This document shows positions 137 to 13,416 of a stretch of DNA of 40,564 nucleotides, piece by piece. This stretch comes from an uncultured Eubacteriales bacterium (GTDB lineage: Bacteria; Bacillota; Clostridia; Christensenellales; Aristaeellaceae). Each line of letters opens with the position of its first letter. Position 1 is the first letter of the stretch. The translations under genes and the position numbers were made by a program. The stretch is from assembly GCA_902765305.1 (NCBI GenBank), contig CACWZI010000009.1:1-40564 (forward strand). Direction: 5' to 3'. The notes under the pieces are model-generated. The model was not told where the DNA came from. It searched no databases and saw nothing but the letters and a program-made list of their open reading frames with translations.

Positions 137-976
137 CTACACCGCCCCGATCGTTCCTCCTTCGATCAGCTCCACGGGGAAGATGGTGGGCTTGCGGGAG
201 GCGGCCTCGGGGGATTCGATCAGCTCAATCAGGCGCTTTGCGGCCGTCTGGCCAATATCCTCGCTGCTCTGGCGGATGGTGGTCAGGCGGGGCGACATGG
301 CCTGGGTGAGCGGTATGCCGTCATAGCCGCCGAAGGCGATATCCTCGGGGATGCGCAGGTTCATCTCCCAGGCCGCCTCCTGGGCGCCCAGGTAGGCCAC
401 GTCGTCGGGCAGCAGTATGCAGGTAGGGCGCTCGGGCAGGCGCAGCAGCTCCAGGACGAGCTTGCGGGTGAGGCCGATGGCGTCGTACAGCCCCTGCTTC
501 AGGTACTCCGGCGGCACAGGCAGGTCGTGATAGGCCATTGTGTTGTGGAACTGGCTGACGCGCGTGCGGGTGACGACGGAGTTGTCGTGGCCATAGATAA
601 AGGCGATGCGGCGATGGCCCTTTTTGATGGCGTACTCCACCAGCTTCTGCACGCCGGTCTCGTTGTCCGAGAGCACCGCGGGCACGCGCTTGTAGATGTG
701 GTCTATGGTGACACAGGGGATCCCGCTCTCCGCCAGCGCCTTGAACTGCGGCGCGCGGAAATCCAGGCAGACCATACACACCCCGTCGATGCCGCCCCTG
801 CGACAGTGCTCCGCGCAGTCCTCGTCCGCACCCGGATGCATGAATGTGATGTCATACCCCCGCGACGCAGCTTCCTCCTTGATCGCGTTCAGGATCAGCA
901 CAAAGAAGGGATGCGTGAGCCCCCTCCCACTCTCTTCCGCATACAGTATGCCCAGGTTGGGCGCATGCTCGGTCAT
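137..976 (-). CDS. LacI-type ligand-binding domain protein without HTH
   Basis: The 279-residue protein covers only the effector-binding part of a LacI/PurR-family regulator (periplasmic-binding-protein-like fold, Peripla_BP_3). It opens directly with the first strand of that fold (NLGILYAEES, then HPFF), carries a typical GGYDGIPLTQAMSPRLTTI segment near residues 225-245, and ends in the family's normal last strand. The roughly 60-residue N-terminal helix-turn-helix of LacI proteins is absent, and there is no signal peptide, so it should be a cytoplasmic small-molecule (probably sugar-like) binding protein that cannot bind DNA in the usual way. ATG at 976 is preferred because GGAGG lies 8 bases upstream; a GTG at 985 overlaps that site. 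It starts about 44 bases after the permease-kinase gene, so it is probably the last gene of the signalling operon. A sensory partner for the kinases is an inference. Confidence 0.8.
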   Translation of the reverse strand: MTEHAPNLGILYAEESGRGLTHPFFVLILNAIKEEAASRGYDITFMHPGADEDCAEHCRRGGIDGVCMVCLDFRAPQFKALAESGIPCVTIDHIYKRVPAVLSDNETGVQKLVEYAIKKGHRRIAFIYGHDNSVVTRTRVSQFHNTMAYHDLPVPPEYLKQGLYDAIGLTRKLVLELLRLPERPTCILLPDDVAYLGAQEAAWEMNLRIPEDIAFGGYDGIPLTQAMSPRLTTIRQSSEDIGQTAAKRLIELIESPEAASRKPTIFPVELIEGGTIGAV

Positions 977-1019
977 GGCTGCCACCTCCGTTGTGTGGTC
1001 GTTCGGGTATGCCGCGCCT

Positions 1020-4000
1020 TCAGCGTGCGGCGTGAATCAGCTTGTCAAGGGTCTCATACAGCCGCTCCGGCTCTACGGGCTTGGACAGGTGCGCCGTCAT
1101 ACCCGCTTGCAGGGAACGCTGCACGTCCTCGTCAAAGGCGTTGGCTGTCATGGCGATGATGGGCACCGTTTGGGCGTCCGGCCGGTCCAGCGCGCGTATG
1201 CCCCGGGTGGCCTCCAGGCCGTCCATCACCGGCATGCGCACGTCCATCAGCACCGCGTCGTACTGGTTCGGCGAAGAACACTCGAACATCTCCACCGCCA
1301 GCTGGCCGTTCTCGGCGTGGTCGGCTTCTATACCCTCCATCTCCAGCAGGTCCATCAGGATCTCCGCGTTGATCTCCATGTCCTCGGCAATCAGCACGCG
1401 GCAGCCCTCCAGGCCATGCTCCGTCTCGCCGGAAGCGTCCTCCGCCTCTGGCGCAGGACCGCCGGAAGCGCCGGCGCCGCGCCGTTCAATGATGCCTGTC
1501 AGCTCGCGCATCAGGCTGTCTGTGAACAGGGGCTTGGACATGATGCCGTCCACGCCCGCAGCCTTGGCCTCATCCTGCATGTCATCCCAGCTGTAGCCGG
1601 TCAGCACGATGATGGCCGTCTGATCGCCTTCGACCGCGCGTATGGCCCGGGCCAGCTCGATGCCGTTCATGTCGGGCATCCGGTAATCCGTCAGCATGAA
1701 GCCATAGGGGCTGCCCTGGTTGCGGAAGGTTTGCAGCCGATCCAGCGCCTCCCTGGCGCTGTGCACGGTATCCGCCTCCACGCCGATGGCGTTCGCCACC
1801 AGGCGCGCGTGCTCGCAGGCCACCTCGTCGTCGTCCACCACCAGGATCCGCAGTCCGCTTGGCAGCGCGTTTCCATGCTCGGAATGGACGCTGCGGCTGG
1901 AGGATTTCAGCGTGACGGTGACGGTGAAGGTTGTGCCCACGCCCTTCTCGCTGTCCACGGCAATGTCGCCATTCATCATATCGACGATGTTCTTGGTGAT
2001 CGCCATGCCCAGGCCGGTGCTGCCGTACTTGTTGGCCGCGCCGGAATCCTCCTGGGAGAAGGCCTCGAAGATCTTCGGAATGTATTCCTTGCTCATGCCG
2101 ATGCCGGTGTCCTTCATGATGAAGCGCAGCGTGCAGTGACCCTCGAATTCGGCGATCTGCTCCACCGTGAAGGTGACGGCGCCGGGCACCGGAGTGAACT
2201 TTACGGCGTTGCCCAATATGTTGATCAGCACCTGCTTCAGCTTCATGTCGTCGCCGATGTAGTAGTCGTTCACCTGGCCGATGATGTGGCAGTTGAAGCT
2301 CAGGCCCTTGTCCACGCACTGGCCGTTGACCATGACGTTGATCTGGTCGATGAAATCACGGAAGCTGAACTCCTCGCTCTTGAGCACCATGCGCCCGGAT
2401 TCGATGCGGCTCATGTCCAGTATGTCGTTGATGAGCCCCAGCAGGTGTCGCGCGCTGGCCCCGATCTTTTCAAGCTGCTCCCGGGTGTGGGGCGTCAGGT
2501 TTGGGTCCTTCAGGGCGATGTTGTCCAAGCCGATGATGGCGTTCATCGGCGTGCGGATCTCGTGGCTCATGTTGGACAGGAAGCTGGTCTTGGCGCGGCT
2601 GCTCTCCTCTGCCAGCACCTTTTCCACCTCGATCTGCTTCTCGCGCTTCTGCATCAGGTAGAAGATGCGGAACAATATCGCCAATGCCGCCACGATCAGC
2701 ACGGTCTGGATCATGCTGTTGCGGATCAGCGCATTGCCCACGTTGTCCAGCACCTCGCGCAGGTAGCTGTCCACGGGCCGGGTCGAGGTGGAAACGATGT
2801 CCACGCCCGCTTCTTCCAGCTTTTGGGTGTAGAAAGCCTGTATGGGCGTCACGGCCTCTTCGGTGGCCATCTCGGTGGCCTGGCGCATCCAGATGGTGGA
2901 TGTGAATATGATCAGCGCCAGCAACACCACCCACACCACCGGCGATCGCCCAAGGCGGCGGGCGGTATCCTTTCGGAACAGGTACAGGAAAAACAGGAAG
3001 CCCAGTATGCCCCAGGCCGCCAGGATCAGATAGGACTCGGCGGAGAGGGTCTTCACCGCCATCAGGTTGGGAATCAGGAAGTAGAGCATGAACATCAGCG
3101 AGATGGCCATGCCCACAAAGCCAATCGCCCGCGCCCGCCGGTTGCCGTCGAGCCTGCCGGACTTGGCCGCCGCGGCGGAGGCATAGGCGTAGGCAATGGT
3201 GGCGCCCACCGTGGTCACGTCCACGATCCAGCTGATGGCCGTCCGGCCCAGCAGGGGCAGCACTGCGGAAATCGCGAGCACGAATACGATGGCGTTCCGG
3301 GGCACGCCGTGTTCATCCAGCCTGCCCATCCATTTGGGCATCATATCGTCCTCGGTCATCGCGTAAAGCAGGCGGCTGGAGGCGATGGTGTTGCCCACCA
3401 GCCCGGTGAAGATGGCGCCCAGCGCCGTAAGCCCCAGCGCCACAGGGCCGATCGCGCCCATGAGCGTCTTCGCCGCATGGAACGTGGGCAGGCCCTTGAT
3501 GCCCGAATAGCTGCCCAGTTCGGAGATGTAATCCATCCAGCCCGCGCAGCCTTCCGGCAGCGCGCACACCGCCAGAATCGCCAATGAAGCATAGGCGACG
3601 GCAGCCGTGATGACCGCAATCGCCATGATTTTAAAGCTCTTTTTTAACGGAAAATCGAATTCCACCGCCGAATGGGAGATCGATTCGAAGCCCACGTAGG
3701 CCCAGGGCGCGAGGGCGACGATCGTAAAAACACCCGCGGCTGGCGAACTGCCGGGAACAAAGGGCGGCGCGATGCTTCCCAATTTGCTGGCAGGATTCGC
3801 GACCGCAAACGCCATGGCGGCGACGATGCCGCCGCCCAGCAGCAGCGCCATGACGATCTGCACCCTGGCGGCCACCCGATTGCGCAGGCAGCACAGCGCT
3901 GCGAAGGCCAGCGCCGCTACGGCCAGCAGCACCTCGCCCATGTAAATATCGTACCCGGCAATTTGATAATGGAAGCCGAACTGGAACAGGTCGCCGAACA

Positions 4001-4379
4001 GGTGCCGGGCAATCAGGGGCAGCGCCGTGGCGTTTGCCCAGATGATGGCCACATAGGTCAGCAGCATGAACCAGCCGTTCAGGAAGCCGTGGTCATAGCC
4101 AAAGAGATGCTTGGCATAGGCATAGGTGCCTCCCGCATCCGGGTCCCGATTCATCAGGTAGTGGTAATTCATGCCGATGACCAGCATGATCAGGCCGCCG
4201 ATCGCGATGCCCAGCACCGTTCCCAGGGGGCCTGCCACCGGCAGGAAGGTGGTTCCGGGCATGACAAAGGCGCCCCAGCCCACGCTGCAGCCAAAGGCCA
4301 GCGCCCACGCTCCCAGGGGCGACAGGTAGCGGAGGAGTCCCTTCCCCTGCGTTTTTTGAGATGGATTCAACCGGATCAC
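1020..4379 (-). CDS. APC amino-acid permease / hybrid histidine kinase fusion
   Basis: One uninterrupted 1119-residue frame. Residues 15-495 are an APC-superfamily permease (about 12 membrane segments; the GWGAFVMPG motif near 34-42 matches the family's TM1 substrate loop). A short extracytoplasmic stretch and another membrane helix (about 555-575) follow. Then come HisKA with H606 in SHEIRTP, HATPase with N724, DTGIGM (757-762) and GSTGLGM (786-792), a first receiver (D898, K949) and a second receiver (D1046, K1100). All catalytic residues are present, so an active kinase is expected; whether the permease part transports or only senses its ligand is unknown. It recalls CbrA, where an SSS-type transporter is joined to a kinase, but here the transporter is APC type. 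The start is GTG at 4379, with AAAGGG just upstream; a slightly downstream start is possible. It lies 109 bases after the Hpt gene and probably uses it for phosphotransfer. Confidence 0.93.
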   Translation of the reverse strand: MIRLNPSQKTQGKGLLRYLSPLGAWALAFGCSVGWGAFVMPGTTFLPVAGPLGTVLGIAIGGLIMLVIGMNYHYLMNRDPDAGGTYAYAKHLFGYDHGFLNGWFMLLTYVAIIWANATALPLIARHLFGDLFQFGFHYQIAGYDIYMGEVLLAVAALAFAALCCLRNRVAARVQIVMALLLGGGIVAAMAFAVANPASKLGSIAPPFVPGSSPAAGVFTIVALAPWAYVGFESISHSAVEFDFPLKKSFKIMAIAVITAAVAYASLAILAVCALPEGCAGWMDYISELGSYSGIKGLPTFHAAKTLMGAIGPVALGLTALGAIFTGLVGNTIASSRLLYAMTEDDMMPKWMGRLDEHGVPRNAIVFVLAISAVLPLLGRTAISWIVDVTTVGATIAYAYASAAAAKSGRLDGNRRARAIGFVGMAISLMFMLYFLIPNLMAVKTLSAESYLILAAWGILGFLFFLYLFRKDTARRLGRSPVVWVVLLALIIFTSTIWMRQATEMATEEAVTPIQAFYTQKLEEAGVDIVSTSTRPVDSYLREVLDNVGNALIRNSMIQTVLIVAALAILFRIFYLMQKREKQIEVEKVLAEESSRAKTSFLSNMSHEIRTPMNAIIGLDNIALKDPNLTPHTREQLEKIGASARHLLGLINDILDMSRIESGRMVLKSEEFSFRDFIDQINVMVNGQCVDKGLSFNCHIIGQVNDYYIGDDMKLKQVLINILGNAVKFTPVPGAVTFTVEQIAEFEGHCTLRFIMKDTGIGMSKEYIPKIFEAFSQEDSGAANKYGSTGLGMAITKNIVDMMNGDIAVDSEKGVGTTFTVTVTLKSSSRSVHSEHGNALPSGLRILVVDDDEVACEHARLVANAIGVEADTVHSAREALDRLQTFRNQGSPYGFMLTDYRMPDMNGIELARAIRAVEGDQTAIIVLTGYSWDDMQDEAKAAGVDGIMSKPLFTDSLMRELTGIIERRGAGASGGPAPEAEDASGETEHGLEGCRVLIAEDMEINAEILMDLLEMEGIEADHAENGQLAVEMFECSSPNQYDAVLMDVRMPVMDGLEATRGIRALDRPDAQTVPIIAMTANAFDEDVQRSLQAGMTAHLSKPVEPERLYETLDKLIHAAR

Positions 4380-4488: not shown

Positions 4489-4860
4489 TTAAACGCCGGC
4501 TTCATACTCCTCGATGCCCTTCACGGTATTCCGTAAGCGCGTCAATAAAGCCTCCACCTTCTCGCGCACCTCGGCATCGGTGAGCTTCCTGGAATTGCCG
4601 GATCGGAATTCCTCGGTGATCTCGTCGGCGGCGATTGCCAGCGCATCCAATCCCAGGTTGGCGCAGACGCCCTTCATGGCGTGGGCGCTCTCAAACAGCT
4701 TTGCGGCGTCCATCGCCTCGCCGGCCCAGGCCAGCTGCTCGCCCGCGTCGCTGTCTTTCAGCTTGCGGACGTATTTGTCGATCAGCTTGTCCTTCTTCAT
4801 CACCCGGACGGCCTGCTCATAGTTGCCGCCGATTTTCTCATACAACTGCTGGATCGTCAT
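4489..4860 (-). CDS. Hpt-domain phosphotransfer protein
   Basis: The 123-residue, all-helical soluble protein is a stand-alone histidine phosphotransfer (Hpt) domain. The segment SAHAMKGVCANLGL carries the phosphorylatable His60 in the normal Hpt motif (HxxKGxxxxLG). Stand-alone Hpt proteins pass phosphate between receiver domains, here plausibly from the receivers of the two hybrid kinases encoded on either side to the receiver of the EAL protein encoded just upstream. Its ATG overlaps the stop codon of that gene (ATGA at 4857-4860), so translation of the two is coupled. Partner choice is inferred from gene order only. Confidence 0.88.
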   Translation of the reverse strand: MTIQQLYEKIGGNYEQAVRVMKKDKLIDKYVRKLKDSDAGEQLAWAGEAMDAAKLFESAHAMKGVCANLGLDALAIAADEITEEFRSGNSRKLTDAEVREKVEALLTRLRNTVKGIEEYEAGV

Positions 4861-6560
4861 ACGCCATTCTCCCTTTCGATCTGTTGCTCCTTAACGATCA
4901 GACTCTCGAATTCCTCCGGCGGCAGCGGACGCGAGAAATAATAGCCCTGCACCAGGTCGCACCCCGCGCCCTTCAGCATACTGAGCTGCGCCTCGGTCTC
5001 CACGCCCTCGGCCACCACGGGCACCTTCAGATATCTGGCGATGTCCAGCACCAACTCGACCAGTTTGAAGTCCTTTTCACTCTGGGTGATGTTGCGCACA
5101 AACTGCATGTCCATCTTCAGCACGTCGATGGGCATGTAGGACAGCATGTTCAGCGACGAATAGCCGGAGCCAAAGTCGTCCATCTCGATCTCAAAGCCCT
5201 TTGCCCGCAGCCGGTTGATCAGTTCGATCATCTGCTCCGCGTTGTCGGTATAGGCGGATTCGGTGACCTCCAGCTTCAGGGCCCTGTGTTCCAGCCCGTA
5301 GCGCTCGATCAGCCCCTCCAGGCGCGCCTCCAGCGTCGGGTCGAAGACGTCCACCCGCGACAGGTTCACCGACACCGGCAGGGTGATCCTGAACTTTTCC
5401 CGCCATTCGGCGATCTGCCGGGCGGCCTCGTTCCAGACGAAGCTGTCCACAGCGCTGATCTGGCCGTTGCCCTCAAACAGCGGTATGAAGCGGCCCGGCG
5501 GCACCATGCCCAGCTCCGGGTGTTTCCAGCGAATTAACGCCTCCGCGCTGCACAGCTTCGGCGGGTCGCACTGCACGTTGTACTTGGGCTGGTAGAAAAC
5601 CGTCAGCTCCCTTTCCTCCACCGCCCGGCGCAGGTCGTTCAGCAGGCGCTGGTCCATCAGCTCCCGCTGGTGCATTTCCTCATCGTAGACCATCAGGCGG
5701 GTCTTGTAGTTGCCGCGGACCATGCTGCAGGCGGCCCGGGCGCTGTCAAACAGCAGCACCGGCTCCACATCCCTGCGCCAGGGCGCGACGCCCATGCGCA
5801 GGCGGATGCTGGCGTTGATCGAGAGGGCGTTCACCTCATCCTGCAGCCGGTCCAGCAGCGCCTGGTAGTCGTCCGGATGCTGGCAAAAGATCTCAAAGCG
5901 GTCCGCCTCGAAGCGGCTGGCAATGCCCTCGGTATCGGCCAGGAAGCCGCGAATGCCGTCGCCGATGGCCGCCAACACCCGGTCGCCGAATTCGCGCCCG
6001 TTCAGCGCGTTCACCGAATGGAACTGTTCGATGTTGATGACGATGGCGTCCATGTGCCAGTTCGGATGGTATTGGTGGATCCGGTTGGCATATTCAAAAA
6101 AGAAATTCCGACTGTACAGCTTGGTCAGGCTGTCGAACTCCGCCGCCTGGATCAGCTGGCGTCCCTCGCTCAGCTCGATGATGCGCCCCACGCGGGCCAG
6201 TATGACCTCGTGCATGTCGAAGGGCTTGGTGATAAAGTCCGCTGCGCCCATCTCCAGCGCCTTGAGCTCGGCATTTCGCTCTGCGGTCAGCACGATGATG
6301 GGAATGGCCTTCAGCAGATCGTCGTTGCGCACACAGTCCAGCACCTTGAAGCCGTCCATCTCAGGCATGATCAAGTCCAGCAGCACCACGGAAAGACTAT
6401 CGCGATATTCTTCGATCATTTGCAGCGCTTCCCTGCCGTTGGAAGCGTATAGGATATCATAATCGTCCTCCAGGATCATACCCAGCACATCGCGGTTGAT
6501 CTCCTGGTCGTCTACAATCAAAACCAGTTGAGGCTTTTTCAGTTGTTTGGATTTGATCAT
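4857..6560 (-). CDS. Response regulator Rec-GGDEF(degenerate)-EAL, c-di-GMP phosphodiesterase
   Basis: ATG at 6560 is chosen because GGAGG lies 8 bases upstream; a TTG at 6575 overlaps that site. The protein has 567 residues. Residues 10-130 are a receiver (phosphoacceptor D62, in LLDLIMPEMDG). Residues about 140-295 are a GGDEF-like domain whose signature has decayed to EADRF, so cyclase activity is unlikely. Residues 310-560 are an EAL domain with the catalytic set intact: E340 of EAL, N399 (VSVNLS), E431 (LEVTES), D461/D462 (MDDFGSG), K482 and E518 (AEGVET). The predicted activity is hydrolysis of c-di-GMP, controlled by receiver phosphorylation. The degenerate GGDEF may be a GTP or c-di-GMP sensing module. 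It is coupled to the Hpt gene by a 4-base overlap and preceded by a hybrid kinase gene. Confidence 0.93.
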   Translation of the reverse strand: MIKSKQLKKPQLVLIVDDQEINRDVLGMILEDDYDILYASNGREALQMIEEYRDSLSVVLLDLIMPEMDGFKVLDCVRNDDLLKAIPIIVLTAERNAELKALEMGAADFITKPFDMHEVILARVGRIIELSEGRQLIQAAEFDSLTKLYSRNFFFEYANRIHQYHPNWHMDAIVINIEQFHSVNALNGREFGDRVLAAIGDGIRGFLADTEGIASRFEADRFEIFCQHPDDYQALLDRLQDEVNALSINASIRLRMGVAPWRRDVEPVLLFDSARAACSMVRGNYKTRLMVYDEEMHQRELMDQRLLNDLRRAVEERELTVFYQPKYNVQCDPPKLCSAEALIRWKHPELGMVPPGRFIPLFEGNGQISAVDSFVWNEAARQIAEWREKFRITLPVSVNLSRVDVFDPTLEARLEGLIERYGLEHRALKLEVTESAYTDNAEQMIELINRLRAKGFEIEMDDFGSGYSSLNMLSYMPIDVLKMDMQFVRNITQSEKDFKLVELVLDIARYLKVPVVAEGVETEAQLSMLKGAGCDLVQGYYFSRPLPPEEFESLIVKEQQIERENGV

Positions 6561-6672
6561 AAATCGTTCCTCCAATCAACAAAACCCTTTAGTTTTTATT
6601 CCGCCTTTTTTCAGCGGCGAATTCAGGACGCCTAACGCTTCGCCATCGCGGTAGCACGCAGGCTGGCGGTTT

Positions 6673-8145
6673 TTACGCTACCAGTGCCCTGAGTGTATCG
6701 TACAGCTGGTCGGTATCCACCGGCTTGGCAAGGTGGGCATTCATGCCCGCATCCAGCGACTGGCGCACGTCCTCCTCGAAGGCGTTCGCAGTCAGGGCGA
6801 CGATGGGCACCGCCTTCGCATCCTCCCGAGGCAGCGCACGTATGGCCCTGGTCGCTTCCAGGCCATCCATCACGGGCATTCGCAAATCCATCAGTATGGC
6901 GTCGAAATGCCCGGGCGGCGCCTGGGAGAAGGCGTCCACCGCCACGCGGCCGTTTTCCGCCCGCTCGCTGGTGACGTCCTCCAGCTCCAACAGATCCGCC
7001 AGCAGGTCGGCATTGAGATCGACGTCCTCGACGATCAGCATGTGCTTTCCGGCCAGCGAGCGGTCTTCCAGGGCTTCGCCGGTCGCCTCCGACGCCTCGG
7101 CGACGTCGACTGCGCCAAGCCTGACCGTCACGGTGAAGGTACTGCCCTCGCCCTTTCGACTGGCGACGGCGATATCGCCGTCCATCATTTCCACCAGCCG
7201 CTTGGTGATCGCCAGGCCGATGCCGCTGCCTGTGGAGCGGTTTATGGCGTTGGCGTCCTCCTGGGCAAAGGAATCAAACAGCTTGGGCATAAAGGCCTCG
7301 TCGATGCCCACGCCTGTATCGCTGACGGTAAAGCGCAGCACGCAACGATCGCCCTCCCGGGGCAGCTGCTCGGCCACAAAGCGCACCGAGCCCCCCTCGG
7401 GCGTGTATTTGGATGCGTTTGACAGTATGCTCAGCAGCACCTGCCGCAGGCGCAGCGAATCGCCGATGCAGGCGCCCTCCAGCTCGCCGACCACCTCGTG
7501 CCGGTAGACCACGCCCTTTTCCTCGCACATCATCCGCGCGAGCACGTTCACCAGATTCAACAGATCCGCAGGTGAGAAGGCCTCCGCCTTCAGGACCATT
7601 TCACCCGATTCGATATGGTTCATGTCCAGGACGTCGTTGATCATGTCCAGGAGGTGATGGGCGCTGATTTCCACCTTTTCCAGCCTGTCGCGGGTCTGGG
7701 GCGTCAGGCTGTCATCCTTCAGTGCGAGCTCGTTCAGGCCGATGACCGCGTTCAGCGGGGTGCGCATCTCGTGGCTCATGGTGGCCATGAAGCGGCTTTT
7801 GGCCTGATTGCTCTCCTCTGCCGCCATCAGCTCTGCCTCCAGGTGCTCCCGCTCGACGATGCGCTGGGTGATGCCATTGAGCAGCTTGTAGATGACGAAT
7901 ACGAACACACTGCCGCCGAAGAGTATGCCGGCCATGATCATATCCGGCTTGCCGAACAGGCCCACCGCCAGATAGCCCAGCAGGAAGCAGACCAACAGTA
8001 TGATGGGCACGTACAGTATGCGGTCGTTCGCGTTCCAGGAATCGAGTTTCTTTACATAGCGGGCAAACCGCACGAAGCTGTAGATATTGTATACCATGAG
8101 CAGGCTGCCAAGGAACACCATGCCCCGAATCAGCCATTGGACCAT
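6673..8145 (-). CDS. Membrane-anchored hybrid histidine kinase
   Basis: ATG at 8145 has a strong G-rich ribosome-binding site (AAGGGGGGG) just upstream; GTG and TTG alternatives overlap that site. The product has 490 residues. Three hydrophobic segments (about 5-23, 45-63 and 68-88) are followed by a short coiled linker, HisKA with H125 (MSHEMRTP), HATPase with N243 and the DTGVGI and STGSGIGL loops, and a C-terminal receiver with D420 and K474. No recognisable sensor domain is present; the membrane helices or a partner protein must supply the signal. The kinase and last receiver resemble those of the permease fusion, which points to duplication. First gene of the five-gene operon. Confidence 0.92.
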   Translation of the reverse strand: MVQWLIRGMVFLGSLLMVYNIYSFVRFARYVKKLDSWNANDRILYVPIILLVCFLLGYLAVGLFGKPDMIMAGILFGGSVFVFVIYKLLNGITQRIVEREHLEAELMAAEESNQAKSRFMATMSHEMRTPLNAVIGLNELALKDDSLTPQTRDRLEKVEISAHHLLDMINDVLDMNHIESGEMVLKAEAFSPADLLNLVNVLARMMCEEKGVVYRHEVVGELEGACIGDSLRLRQVLLSILSNASKYTPEGGSVRFVAEQLPREGDRCVLRFTVSDTGVGIDEAFMPKLFDSFAQEDANAINRSTGSGIGLAITKRLVEMMDGDIAVASRKGEGSTFTVTVRLGAVDVAEASEATGEALEDRSLAGKHMLIVEDVDLNADLLADLLELEDVTSERAENGRVAVDAFSQAPPGHFDAILMDLRMPVMDGLEATRAIRALPREDAKAVPIVALTANAFEEDVRQSLDAGMNAHLAKPVDTDQLYDTLRALVA

Positions 8146-8183
8146 GCGATTCACCCCCCCTTGCAAACAGGCTTCAGCACGCT

Positions 8184-8300: not shown

Positions 8301-9647
8301 TTATTCTCCGACACGGCAACCGTGGCCCCCCGCCGCCTTCACCGCGTACAGAGCCGCGTCAGCCCGCCTGAAGATCTCCTCGGTATCCTGCCCTTCGTCG
8401 CCGAAGGCCACGCCACAGCTCAGGCTGATTGGCGGCAGCCCGTCCTCGCCCTTGCCCAGGACCTCGTTGATGTGGGCCACCTTCTGCTTCACCAGCGCGT
8501 TATGTCCGGGGTCGGTGTGTACCATGATGACCGCGAACTCATCTCCGCCGATGCGGCAGACGTGGTCCTGGGAGCGGAAGCTCTTGAGTATCGTACCGGC
8601 CACCTTGACCAGGGCCCTGTCCCCCAGCTCGTGACCGTTGCCATCATTGATATGCTTGAACTTGTCCACGTCAAACAGCAGCAGCGCCGAGCTTTCCCAG
8701 TTTGTGTTCTTCAGGAAGAACACATAGCCACTGCGGTTGTGTATGCCTGTCAGCTGGTCGTGGGTGGCGTCGTAGGTCAGGCGCTCGGTCTTTTCCTGGT
8801 TGGCCTCATACATCAGGTTGTAGGTCTTTGCCAGGAACCGGAATTCGTTGGAGCCCTTGATGGGGATCGGCTGGTCCGCGCGAATGTACACCACGGCCCG
8901 CAACAGCGGGCTGACCACCAGCAGCGTGGTCAGCAGCATCGTAAACAGCGTGGCGAGTATCGCGATGAGTATCAGTGTGCGCTCCTTGAACAGCATGTCG
9001 TCCAGCGCGTCGGTGGCCGCCTTCTGGTGGGCGTCCACCTCCCTGGTCAGGGTATCCAGGCAGTCCTGCACATGGGCGGAAATGGATTCCTTCTTCATGT
9101 GATAGACGTCGTCGAACACCATATTCCGGGCCCGCACCGCTTGCTTGTCCCGGGGCAGCAGCGCGTCCTCCTCCGACAGCTCCACCTTCCGAATGGCCTC
9201 GGGGTAGTCGTTCACGTCGTAGCCGTAGGCCGCGACGGCCATGCGCATCGCGTAATACTCCCGGTCCATCAGCGCGACGGACTCCTTCATCGCCGTCTCG
9301 AGCGACGCATAGGCTTCGTTGTCGTCTGTGATCGCGCGAATGCTCTCAAGCGCCTGGTCCCGACGCCTGTCGACGTTCGCCTCTTTGAAGTAGTTGTCCA
9401 GATACTCCCGTTTCCCCGTCTCTACAAAGCAGCGCGACTGCTCGGTCAGGTAGTCCGAGGCCATCTGCAGCTTGTCGGCGTCCCGCTGCCAGAGGATATA
9501 ATCGCCGGTATATTCCCGCATGCGGGAATAACCCATCTTGGTCCTGAAGGTTGTGAACAACAGCAGCAGGGAAATCACCAGCAACAGCAGGGCCATCAGC
9601 AACTGGATCCTTTGAATGGAGATGCCCTTTGTTTTGTCGCGAAGCAT
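8301..9647 (-). CDS. Membrane diguanylate cyclase (GGDEF)
   Basis: ATG at 9647 follows GGAG closely. The 448-residue protein has a membrane helix at about 13-31, an extracytoplasmic helical sensor region of roughly 190 residues (no family recognised; four-helix-bundle-like, charged, coiled), a second membrane helix at about 224-246, then a GGDEF domain. The domain contains DQLTGIHNR, the active-site GGDEF at 367-371 and an inhibitory-site RxxD (RSQD) five residues before it, so it should make c-di-GMP from two GTP and be inhibited by its product. It has its own promoter and terminator. It is transcribed towards the operon that encodes the EAL phosphodiesterase, so synthesis and breakdown of c-di-GMP sit side by side. 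The signal sensed is not predictable. Confidence 0.92.
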   Translation of the reverse strand: MLRDKTKGISIQRIQLLMALLLLVISLLLLFTTFRTKMGYSRMREYTGDYILWQRDADKLQMASDYLTEQSRCFVETGKREYLDNYFKEANVDRRRDQALESIRAITDDNEAYASLETAMKESVALMDREYYAMRMAVAAYGYDVNDYPEAIRKVELSEEDALLPRDKQAVRARNMVFDDVYHMKKESISAHVQDCLDTLTREVDAHQKAATDALDDMLFKERTLILIAILATLFTMLLTTLLVVSPLLRAVVYIRADQPIPIKGSNEFRFLAKTYNLMYEANQEKTERLTYDATHDQLTGIHNRSGYVFFLKNTNWESSALLLFDVDKFKHINDGNGHELGDRALVKVAGTILKSFRSQDHVCRIGGDEFAVIMVHTDPGHNALVKQKVAHINEVLGKGEDGLPPISLSCGVAFGDEGQDTEEIFRRADAALYAVKAAGGHGCRVGE

Positions 9648-9706
9648 GCTCTCCGACCTCTTTTGTCTTATTAAACGGCTGTTTCCAAACCGTAAAGCCA
9701 ATCATT

Positions 9707-9735
9707 ATTATACTATAGAAAAGCGTGCATGTCCA
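9707..9735 (-). promoter_or_regulatory. Promoter of the diguanylate cyclase gene
   Basis: Minus strand TGGACA (9730-9735), 17-base spacer, TATAAT (9707-9712), about 60 bases before the ATG at 9647. The surrounding 9660-9870 stretch is A+T-rich and holds no gene. Confidence 0.7.
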
Positions 9736-10588: not shown

Positions 10589-13357
10589 TCAATATATCCT
10601 GAACCTCACCGTCGCCTTTGAAGGCAGCAGGTAGTTTCTGTTGGAGAGTGCGGTGGCCGTGGCGGTGTAGGCGCCCTTTTTCTTCTTCGCCCCGCTGACC
10701 GTCACCCTGCACCTGTCGCCCTTGATCAGCCCGATCGCCGTAGCCGTGGGCTTTTGTTTCTCGCCGTTGTATTTCAGCCTGGTCCCGGTCCACTTCAGCC
10801 TGACCGTCTTCTTCCTGATGGTGCAGATCCTTGTCCGCGCCTTTGGAAGGGCATAGTTTGCATTGGAGAGCCCGGCTGCCTTTGCCCTGTAATTCCCCGC
10901 GTTCCTGCGGCCGCCTGTCACCGTCACCGTACACTTGTCGCCGGATACCAGACCCGTGGCCTTCACTGTAGGCTTTTGGGTCTTTCCGTTGTAGGTCAGG
11001 CTGGTCCTGCTCCACTTCAGTTTTACCGTCTTCGGCGCAATGGTGAACGTCTGCGTCGTGGTCTTCGGCAACGCATAGTTGCCGTTGGACAGGGCACTGG
11101 CCTTCGCTGTGTAGCTGCCCGCGTTCTTCTTCCCACCGAGCACCGTCACCGTGCAGCTGTCGCCAGAGACCAGGCCCGTGGCCTTCACGGTGGGGCTTTG
11201 TATCTTGCCGTTGTAGGTCAGGCGGGTCCTGCTCCACTTCAGCCCCACCGTCTTTGGCGCAATGGTGAACGCCTGCATCGCGGACTCCGGCAGCGCATAG
11301 TTGCCGTTGGACAGGCCGGTCGCCGTCGCCGTGTAGCTGCCCGCGTCCGTCTGCCCACCGAGCACCGTCACCGCGCAGCTGTCGCCGGAGACCAGGTTGC
11401 TCACCGCCGCCCTGGGCCCCTGCGCTTTGCCGTTGTAGGTCATGTCGGTGTTCGTCCAAGCCAGCTGAGCGACCCTTTGGGAAATCGCAAAGGTTCGTGT
11501 CACAGTGGACGGCAGCTTATAATTCCCGTTGGACAAGCCGGTCGCCCTGGCTGTGTAGCTGCCCGCGTTCTTCTGTGCGCCACTCACCGTCACCGCGCAC
11601 TTATCGCCGGAGAGGAGTCCCGTGGCCGTCGCCGTGGGCGCGTAGGCATTGCCGTCGTAGGTGAAAGCGGTGTTTGCCCAATTCAGATCCACCGTCTTCG
11701 GCGCGATGGTCACCCACGTCTGGCCTTCCACGATCCCGTAATCCTTTATATCAGCGCAAAAATACACGGTATACGATCCCGCGTTCTTCCATGTGGGGCT
11801 GCTGCTCCTGTCATATACGCCCTTTTCCGTGCCGTAAGAAACCGTTCCGTCGCCATCCAGGAATACGCTGGCCCCATGGGCGCTGCCGTCATAGGTCCCG
11901 CTGAAGCTCTGGACGGTATAAACAGCCTCACCGTAGTTGAAGGGAGACATCGTCAGCCATTCACTGGAAAAATTCTCAAGTGTCTCTGCTCTGTAGGTAT
12001 AGGTGAGCGTGCCGCAGGTGAAGGCGGTGCTTGTCTGGCCCTTACAGCCCTTCAGAAAATACTTTTCGTTGCAGGCGTCGCCGCCGTCGCTGTTGGTGAT
12101 ATCCGCCAGGTAGACCCGACCGTCGGGCATGCGCAGCGCGTTCCACATGTGTGCGCCGGGAATGCCGCCGCTCATCAACTCGCAGGCCACGTCCCCATCG
12201 AAGTCGCTCAGGTCGCAGAGGTACTTGAAGCCCTTGGAGTAGCCCTCGCAGACCACCTTGGTGCTGTCGTCCCCGTCGAATATGTACACCAGCTGCCAGG
12301 GATCGCCGTAGGGCGTGTTTTTATCGCTCGCCGCGTCGCGGTTGTATTCCACCAGGCTGCAAATTGCATTCGCATACGCCCTCACCTTGGACAGGTCGTC
12401 CTTGCCCGCGTTGTCCGAAACGATGCCATTGATATTCGAAACCGCAACGCTCACCCGGGTGGGCAGGTCGTTCACCTCATAGGTGCCGATTGCATCGTCT
12501 TTGGAGTAATCCTTGGCGACAGCCATCTTCGCGGTCAGGGACGATAGTCTGGCCTTACCATCCTGCTTCATAATCCCATAGTTCCAGCGCATGCCGATGG
12601 TCGCCTTGTCAAACCAGTAGAGTTCGTAGGGATAATCCGCCAGCAAAGCCTGCATGAACTTCTTCTGCGCATTCTGCGCAAATCCTTCCTTTGACAGCAG
12701 GGCCGAACCAAGATCCTCGTCATCCAGGCTTTCAAGCCCCAGCGCCTCGGCGGTCCACCAGCTGTCCGTAAGTCCGGCGGCATCGTCGCTGATCGCGAAC
12801 GCGGTGGATGTTCGCGACCCTTCCGCAACCTCCCGAATCATCGGCGCCAGCGCGTCGTACAGCTTCAGGCTGATGCCGTCCAGCATGGCGCGCCCGGAGA
12901 AGGCGGAGCGCAGGTTGCGCCTCGGCGCCATGCCCGGCAGCATCCGATTCATCCATGCCTCGAACAGCGCGTCGTTGTCCATGCCGCCGGAGGTCGTGAC
13001 GCTTTCCGTTGCGCCCTCGGCATCGGCCTGTATGCCATCCACGTCAACGACAGCCGCCTCCAAGCCCAGGGCGGCCTCGTCCCCCACCCCGAGCAGCGCG
13101 TTCTCGTCCAGCTGAAGCGTCAGCAGGCCGTCAAGGAGCAAGCCGTCATCCGGACTGTCGTCCTGAATCAGGGCATCGCCGTCCAGTATGAGCGCTTCAT
13201 CATCCGAAAATGTCTCTTCGCCATCCAATTCAATGTCGATCCCGTCCGGGTCCGCCACCACTGTTTCCACCACGCCGGCCGACGCGGAAATAACCGGCGT
13301 GGACAGCACCGCCAGCATCAGCATCAGCGCGATCCTGCAAAGCATCCGACGCTTCAT
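10589..13357 (-). CDS. Secreted transglutaminase-like protein with MBG/YDG repeats
   Basis: ATG at 13357, with GGAGG 8 bases upstream, gives 922 residues. A signal peptide (about 1-27) is followed by an acidic, leucine-rich low-complexity stretch (about 30-115). A transglutaminase/protease-like core has a plausible triad C370 (VVCEGYSKG), H403 (GAHMWNAL) and D419 (LADITNSD). One divergent and five well-conserved Ig-like repeats of about 74 residues follow (pattern: TYNGK, then GLVSGD.C.VTV, AGSYTA, LSNGNYALP). The fold fits extracellular peptidases or crosslinking enzymes with a repeat stalk. There is no LPXTG or other sorting signal at the C-terminus, so it is probably released or held non-covalently. 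The triad reading is by motif only; substrate unknown. Confidence 0.85.
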   Translation of the reverse strand: MKRRMLCRIALMLMLAVLSTPVISASAGVVETVVADPDGIDIELDGEETFSDDEALILDGDALIQDDSPDDGLLLDGLLTLQLDENALLGVGDEAALGLEAAVVDVDGIQADAEGATESVTTSGGMDNDALFEAWMNRMLPGMAPRRNLRSAFSGRAMLDGISLKLYDALAPMIREVAEGSRTSTAFAISDDAAGLTDSWWTAEALGLESLDDEDLGSALLSKEGFAQNAQKKFMQALLADYPYELYWFDKATIGMRWNYGIMKQDGKARLSSLTAKMAVAKDYSKDDAIGTYEVNDLPTRVSVAVSNINGIVSDNAGKDDLSKVRAYANAICSLVEYNRDAASDKNTPYGDPWQLVYIFDGDDSTKVVCEGYSKGFKYLCDLSDFDGDVACELMSGGIPGAHMWNALRMPDGRVYLADITNSDGGDACNEKYFLKGCKGQTSTAFTCGTLTYTYRAETLENFSSEWLTMSPFNYGEAVYTVQSFSGTYDGSAHGASVFLDGDGTVSYGTEKGVYDRSSSPTWKNAGSYTVYFCADIKDYGIVEGQTWVTIAPKTVDLNWANTAFTYDGNAYAPTATATGLLSGDKCAVTVSGAQKNAGSYTARATGLSNGNYKLPSTVTRTFAISQRVAQLAWTNTDMTYNGKAQGPRAAVSNLVSGDSCAVTVLGGQTDAGSYTATATGLSNGNYALPESAMQAFTIAPKTVGLKWSRTRLTYNGKIQSPTVKATGLVSGDSCTVTVLGGKKNAGSYTAKASALSNGNYALPKTTTQTFTIAPKTVKLKWSRTSLTYNGKTQKPTVKATGLVSGDKCTVTVTGGRRNAGNYRAKAAGLSNANYALPKARTRICTIRKKTVRLKWTGTRLKYNGEKQKPTATAIGLIKGDRCRVTVSGAKKKKGAYTATATALSNRNYLLPSKATVRFRIY
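10592..11704 (-). repeat. Five tandem ~222-bp coding repeats
   Basis: The 3' part of the gene consists of five tandem units of about 74 codons. Units 3 and 4, counted from the N-terminal side, are the most alike, which suggests recent duplication or gene conversion; the last is the most basic and divergent. A sixth, poorer unit precedes them. Confidence 0.85.
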
Positions 13358-13416
13358 CAAGCGCACCTCCAAAAGTCCTGTATGTAAACGGCCATCCATA
13401 CGCTCATTATATATTC

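Follow-up and report, generated by a model that had tools for sequence, protein, structure and literature searches.

Domain structure of the APC-permease hybrid histidine kinase

The window analysed here is a stretch of 40,564 nucleotides from an uncultured Eubacteriales bacterium (contig CACWZI010000009.1 of assembly GCA_902765305.1). Close to one end, on the minus strand at 1020..4379, an open frame with a GTG start at 4379 encodes a protein of 1119 amino acids in which an APC-family permease is joined to a hybrid histidine kinase, as assigned from Pfam matches, motifs and hydropathy. From the amino- to the carboxy-terminus it is composed of the APC module (residues 17–470), two further transmembrane (TM) segments with a loop between them (TM13-loop-TM14, residues 471–580), HisKA (596–662), HATPase_c (709–824) and two receiver domains, REC1 (843–966) and REC2 (993–1114). 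A long plus-strand open reading frame (ORF) overlapping the gene (696-3587) was taken as spurious.

Pfam assigns residues 30–462 to AA_permease (PF00324), with an E-value of 1.1e-23 and 84.1 bits against a cut-off of 24.6; PF13520 also matches, with 79.7 bits against a cut-off of 27. The domain search thus confirms the APC type originally predicted for the amino-terminus. HisKA and HATPase_c are matched with E-values of 6e-18 and 2e-26, and the two Response_reg domains with a combined value of 2e-44. The kinase contains His606, Asn720 and Asn724 of the N-box, DTGIGM from residue 757 and GSTGLGMAI from residue 786, while the receivers contain Asp898 and Asp1046 and the motifs SKPLF and SKPVEP. 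All the elements that define a hybrid histidine kinase are therefore present: HisKA, HATPase_c, a receiver, the H, N and G boxes and the phospho-accepting aspartate. In an alignment of 32 fusions, hand-picked from 48 rows by dropping most of the truncated and odd ones, H606, N720, N724, D757, G759, G789, G791 and D1046 are invariant. The original prediction of a single frame carrying an APC permease, HisKA, HATPase and two receivers with their catalytic motifs is borne out by Pfam, the motif check and this alignment.

Ratios of nonsynonymous to synonymous substitution (dN/dS) are 0.20-0.27 for the permease part in all five pairs compared, 0.13-0.35 for the receivers and 0.06-0.20 for the kinase; the hinge between the receivers is under looser constraint (0.27-1.67). 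Purifying selection acts on the permease part with a strength similar to that on the receivers, and the kinase is held more tightly.

The permease module and the coupling segment

The permease module (2970..4331, minus strand) contains 12 hydrophobic segments, and the coupling segment (2640..2969, minus strand) adds two more, at residues 480-498 and 557-575, flanking a loop of about 58 residues. The count, taken from a plain hydropathy scan, agrees with the roughly 12 helices predicted for the permease, but the whole protein has 14. The coupling segment is recognised in both kinase and GGDEF fusions; it is below detection at an E-value of 1e-4 in loci L001, L003 and L052.

The glycine-rich breaks of TM1 (GCSVGWGAF, at residue 30) and TM6 (APWAYVGFE, at residue 224), which we take to be a mark of the APC family, are conserved in the family as VGWG and PWAFVGFE. 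By sequence, the solved structures nearest to the module are cationic amino-acid transporters, followed by carriers of the xCT/LAT type and the bacterial amino-acid transporter 5oqt, presumably GkApcT; the lysine-specific permease 9eyd is also among its structural relatives. Asn116, Glu149, Arg379 and Trp384 are invariant in 70 fused or family-member modules, hereafter sensors, and in 20 rows of free-standing relatives, with Trp35 and Asp387 nearly so; their location in the pocket is putative. The lysine that occupies a Na2-like site in TM5 of proton-coupled carriers of the ApcT/GkApcT type is replaced by Leu181 at the aligned place, and no Lys, Arg or His occurs within four residues of this position in any of 71 rows, free-standing relatives included, with the TM5 register to GkApcT set by hand. 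On the substrate site, the earlier question is answered in part: the TM1 and TM6 backbone motifs and the core residues are kept, but the TM5 lysine is absent.

Other residues set the sensors apart. Asp96, Trp114, Ala115, Glu232, Tyr284 and Asp471 are present in 96-100% of the 70 sensors and in at most 15% of the 20 free-standing rows. In TM6, where the free-standing relatives have Asp, Pro and Gln, the sensors have Glu232, a Ser, Thr, Cys or Ala at position 235, and mostly His236.

Predicted phosphorelay partners and gene neighbourhood

Directly upstream of the kinase gene and on the same strand lie genes for an Hpt phosphotransfer protein (PF01627; 4489..4860, 123 amino acids), whose histidine is kept in all 26 homologues aligned, and for a REC-GGDEF-EAL response regulator (4857..6575, 572 amino acids) with a degenerate GGDEF motif and intact EAL motifs. 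The two genes share four bases. With an Hpt protein and a terminal response regulator encoded alongside the kinase, the genes expected of a multistep phosphorelay are present. The next gene (6673..8166, minus strand) encodes a second hybrid histidine kinase (HK) of the HK-REC type, of 497 amino acids, with a hydrophobic amino-terminus and no recognised sensor domain.

This arrangement recurs. An Hpt gene lies immediately upstream of the two-receiver form in 23 of the 24 loci with at least 350 bases upstream, the exception being L071, and the order HK-REC, REC-GGDEF-EAL, Hpt, APC-kinase is found in 15 of the 19 loci with at least 4 kb upstream; these counts include the single-receiver loci L021 and L022 (the latter on a cut contig), and exclude L015, which has no upstream DNA, and duplicates. 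In the cluster of 25 regulators, which includes one without a receiver and some that lie close to other APC fusions, the GG[DE]EF motif is lost at the aligned place in all 25 and the EAL motifs are intact in 24; four carry an additional carboxy-terminal GGDEF domain. The REC-GGDEF-EAL regulator of L026 (5627-7375, minus strand) has eroded EAL motifs too.

The presumed operon is headed by a gene for a GGDEF protein (8301..9701, minus strand), directly upstream of which a sigma-70-like promoter matches at 11 of 12 positions (9707..9735, minus strand); the scan found seven such sites in all, with 4.0 expected (standard deviation 1.9). Among the other two-receiver loci listed, L006 alone has a same-strand GGDEF gene at the operon head. 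The run ends with a gene for a LacI-type effector-binding protein without a DNA-binding domain (137..985, minus strand). The LacI-fold protein behind the kinase lacks the helix-turn-helix in the window, L006 and L015, and the copy in L007 retains the LacI DNA-binding domain. One family of GGDEF proteins of about 1140 amino acids, with the structure SBP_bac_3-PAS-GGDEF in the member examined (L021), adjoins APC-kinase genes in L014 (4567-7968), L021 (10888-14316) and L071 (563-3991). Farther along the window, an ORF of 936 amino acids with an MBG_2 match (10589-13399, minus strand) perhaps encodes a surface protein.

Distribution of the fusions

Relatives were sought in a separate collection with one genome per species, which gave at least 78 loci among the best 80 of 587 relatives. 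An APC ORF is present in 39 of the 78, and in 37 of these loci it is fused to a signalling output; the other 39 have no APC ORF in the stretch covered. APC-HisKA fusions, for which a survey of other genomes had been suggested, are thus found widely. To judge by their titles, most records are from ruminant gut samples or are RUG bins, which we take to be from rumen. The Lachnospiraceae strain AC3007 (L035), on a contig of 232 kb, is the sole fused locus with a strain name and a title that mentions neither a metagenome-assembled genome (MAG) nor an uncultured organism. The records are labelled Bacillota, Chloroflexota (two), Actinomycetota (one) and Pseudomonadota (one); four phylum labels suggest horizontal transfer, though MAG binning could mislead.

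A profile of 38 modules (A2), used at a threshold E-value of 1e-60, matched 19 of 120 genomes of the taxonomic family of the window organism and 11 of 398 of its phylum, its own genome included, with some of the matches not being fusions. In a second taxonomic family, picked as a centre because a match was already there, 39 of 101 genomes match, and 58 of the 59 match rows lie in frames of at least 814 amino acids.

One module with several outputs

Classing by domain probes seeded with the window's own proteins, counting fragments and excluding the duplicates L084-L087 and L102, gave 23 APC-HK-REC-REC, 20 APC-HK-REC, one APC-HK-HK-REC and five APC-HK ORFs, together with seven APC-GGDEF, six APC-GGDEF-REC-GGDEF-EAL and 15 APC ORFs without a partner domain. 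Pfam agrees with these classes on the examples submitted and upholds APC plus GGDEF in three of three proteins; it gives APC-PAS-HK-REC-REC for L071 and, for an APC-HK protein of L088, the permease, HATPase_c below the cut-off only and no HisKA. All 13 APC-GGDEF fusions have an intact first GGDEF domain. The six long APC-GGDEF-REC-GGDEF-EAL proteins keep the motif in that domain only and have the EAL motif. In L019, L095, L029 and L034 an APC-kinase gene is followed directly by an APC-GGDEF gene; these loci form two pairs of near relatives and so represent about two independent cases.

In a quick tree built from 70 APC rows, one change parts the sensors from nine free-standing relatives, and two changes account for kinase versus cyclase outputs (shuffled mean 11.1). 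A transporter fold seems to have been turned into a plug-in receptor, wired to kinases or to second-messenger enzymes. As the same module stands on active-looking GGDEF domains in sister proteins, one receptor family could act on cyclic di-GMP (c-di-GMP) from both sides. With the conserved Hpt and REC-EAL operon and the sister diguanylate cyclase fusions, both missed in the original prediction, the finding is broader than first described.

Tandem APC-HK pairs without a receiver occur in L088 (4507-9406), L089 (396-5382), L143 and L144. In the L088 pair the kinase motifs appear eroded, and none is detected by the motif patterns in the L089 pair; a CheB-like gene lies upstream of the former, and a gene of the same cluster is present in L089. 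Such pairs are perhaps heterodimeric or pseudokinase receptors.

APC genes in the genome of the window

PF13520 finds four genes in the genome to which the window belongs, in frames of 1451, 1119, 935 and 551 amino acids, and PF00324 finds two of these same four. They encode an APC-GGDEF-REC-GGDEF-EAL protein, the window kinase, an APC-HK-REC protein and an APC protein that ends where the output would start and has, judged by eye, two extra hydrophobic stretches. All four are members of the sensor family, three of them fused; in this genome, which is 93% complete, neither model finds an APC gene outside that family. Both models find genes in 11 of 14 control genomes, so they are not blind to ordinary carriers. 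Elsewhere in the same genome (contig C77, L001/L002), genes for an APC-HK-REC protein, two HK-REC-REC proteins and the 1451-residue APC-GGDEF-REC-GGDEF-EAL protein lie within about 15 kb.

Clues to the ligand

The fold makes an amino acid or amine the probable ligand; the SBP_bac_3-PAS-GGDEF neighbours and the enzymes encoded beside some free-standing relatives agree weakly. Both L092 and L094 have a class-III aminotransferase near the free-standing gene, accompanied in L092 by a sulfoacetaldehyde acetyltransferase and in L094 by an alanine dehydrogenase, the latter two enzymes each scoring above cut-off. These two and their relatives are possible taurine or omega-amino-acid carriers. One aldehyde dehydrogenase is encoded no more than 6 kb from the permease gene in five loci of one genus (L093, L133, L135, L136 and L137), scoring just below the MMSDH cut-off in L093 and L133, the two scanned. 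None of the enzyme probes matched in four of eight extra free-standing regions, two of which are contigs shorter than 6 kb, or in L091; further neighbours are glutamate dehydrogenase and housekeeping genes. Given the pathway roles of these enzymes, the context of the free-standing relatives hints at taurine, beta-alanine or other omega-amino acids. Because these relatives are only 29-38% identical to the window domain, the hint is a lead for the sensors themselves and nothing firmer.

Proposed mechanism and alternatives

As read from the sequence, the system consists of an APC module with conserved substrate-site backbone motifs, two helices with a loop, an intact hybrid kinase and co-encoded Hpt and REC-GGDEF-EAL proteins. 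We consider it fairly probable that it is a permease-derived receptor for an amino-acid-type ligand, which would set c-di-GMP through a phosphorelay. The permease site would bind an amino acid or a small amine of similar kind, and the resulting change of state would shift TM13, TM14 and the segment ahead of HisKA, switching the protein between kinase and phosphatase activity. Phosphate would pass from His606 to a receiver, to Hpt and on to the receiver of the response regulator, altering the breakdown of c-di-GMP by the EAL domain. The module probably signals by occupancy, with little or no transport: the lack of the TM5 lysine and of a non-sensor APC gene among the matches in the genome make binding seem a likelier input than uptake. 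More tentatively, the family may be a bacterial counterpart of yeast Ssy1, in which an APC lineage gave up life as a carrier to supply plug-in amino-acid or omega-amino-acid receptors both to EAL-controlling phosphorelay kinases and to diguanylate cyclases. The two kinds of output would in some cases form tandem pairs with opposite effects in response to one kind of ligand, and the receptors would occur in gut bacteria that carry four phylum labels.

Several observations weigh against the proposed receptor. The TM5 position does not separate sensors from free-standing relatives, and an ordinary APC carrier could sit in the part of the genome missing at 93% completeness. Within the window, the fold is the one indication of an amino acid. 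Hpt is among the listed neighbours of just five of 20 single-receiver fusions; the APC ORF is unfused or broken in two of the 39 APC-bearing loci (L036 and L063); and two adjacent genes of the APC-GGDEF type (genome G086, contig C63, L096) are each interrupted by a single in-frame stop within the permease part.

The module might instead import an amino acid, as CbrA is reported to import histidine (PMC13022988), with the transport cycle driving the kinase. In favour of such a transceptor, TM1 and TM6 keep their motifs, the core residues common to sensors and free-standing relatives are retained, and purifying selection acts on the permease part. The ApcT-type lysine is absent, but since free-standing relatives lack it too, its loss is no mark of lost transport. 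The departures of the sensors in TM6 and the finding of sensor-family APC genes alone in the genome argue the other way, and we regard this reading as rather unlikely. Less likely still is a permease that acts as a mere membrane anchor or dimer-maker, with the TM13-TM14 loop or a partner protein reading the signal. The loop is 89 and 93% identical in the two closest orthologues and the HK-REC partner has a hydrophobic amino-terminus with no known sensor, but the loop is highly variable in the family and far shorter in L016, L020 and L048, and the four residues invariant over 70 sensors would hardly be expected of a bare anchor. That the protein is an ordinary recent fusion or an assembly artefact is hardly credible, even though the organism is represented by an assembly of 177 contigs: fusion at 37 of 78 separate loci, including the long AC3007 contig, and selection on the permease part speak against chance or misassembly, and with the long frames of the second taxonomic family, misassembly is ruled out.

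Comparison with known systems

Pfam gives AA_permease for the window kinase and no SSS domain at an E-value of 1e-3; at the same threshold no further family, such as STAC, is matched in a library that we take to contain the STAC model, the linker being TM13-loop-TM14. Membership of the SLC5/STAC family of CbrA is therefore excluded. According to PMC7918813, SSS/SLC5 transporters have the LeuT fold and belong to the APC superfamily, as does the APC family, so the predicted difference from the SSS transporter of CbrA stands at the level of the family but not of the fold. CbrA and CrbS/MxtR likewise place an APC-superfamily carrier on a histidine kinase, CrbS/MxtR with a receiver as well (PMC13022988 and PMC7918813). 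The window protein differs in having a carrier of the APC family proper (PF00324/PF13520), TM13-loop-TM14 coupling, Hpt and EAL partners and sisters with GGDEF outputs. The activating signal of CbrA is still termed elusive in PMC13022988.

In yeast, Ssy1 and Gap1 are reported to use a permease fold as an amino-acid receptor; they are eukaryotic, and Ssy1 is reported to signal through partner proteins. Neither is known to have a kinase or cyclase on its chain. LysP of E. coli, which we assume to belong to the APC family, offers a bacterial parallel. A lysine permease of 12 helices, it reports its substrate to the signalling protein CadC (PMC5936718); LysP and CadC are separate proteins, whereas the window system is one chain with a phosphorelay or, in its sisters, a c-di-GMP output. 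In Ks-Amt5, an uptake protein serves as receptor on a kinase without a HAMP, PAS or STAC linker and binds ammonium without translocating it; it has the Amt fold, and the passages of PMC5764959 consulted mention no receiver domain and name no response regulator for it.

If the proposal is true, amino-acid supply would be tied directly to c-di-GMP in rumen bacteria. The family would also form a large bacterial transceptor-like set, against the picture in a 2024 paper (PMC11109136) that reported membrane transceptors are exclusively eukaryotic, by a definition that excludes CbrA. It bears on how a transporter fold relays ligand binding to a kinase and, with the input module on kinases and cyclases and free-standing relatives as controls, receptor-specific residues can be read from the sequence. 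Fusions of this kind are likely to be annotated automatically in InterPro and UniProt, which were outside the scope of the literature survey; the titles and abstract openings of the open-access literature surveyed describe no APC-kinase or APC-GGDEF fusion. Transporter-kinases are already known from SLC5-STAC proteins and Ks-Amt5; what is new, so far as that literature shows, is the use of the APC family and the modularity of the outputs across the whole family.

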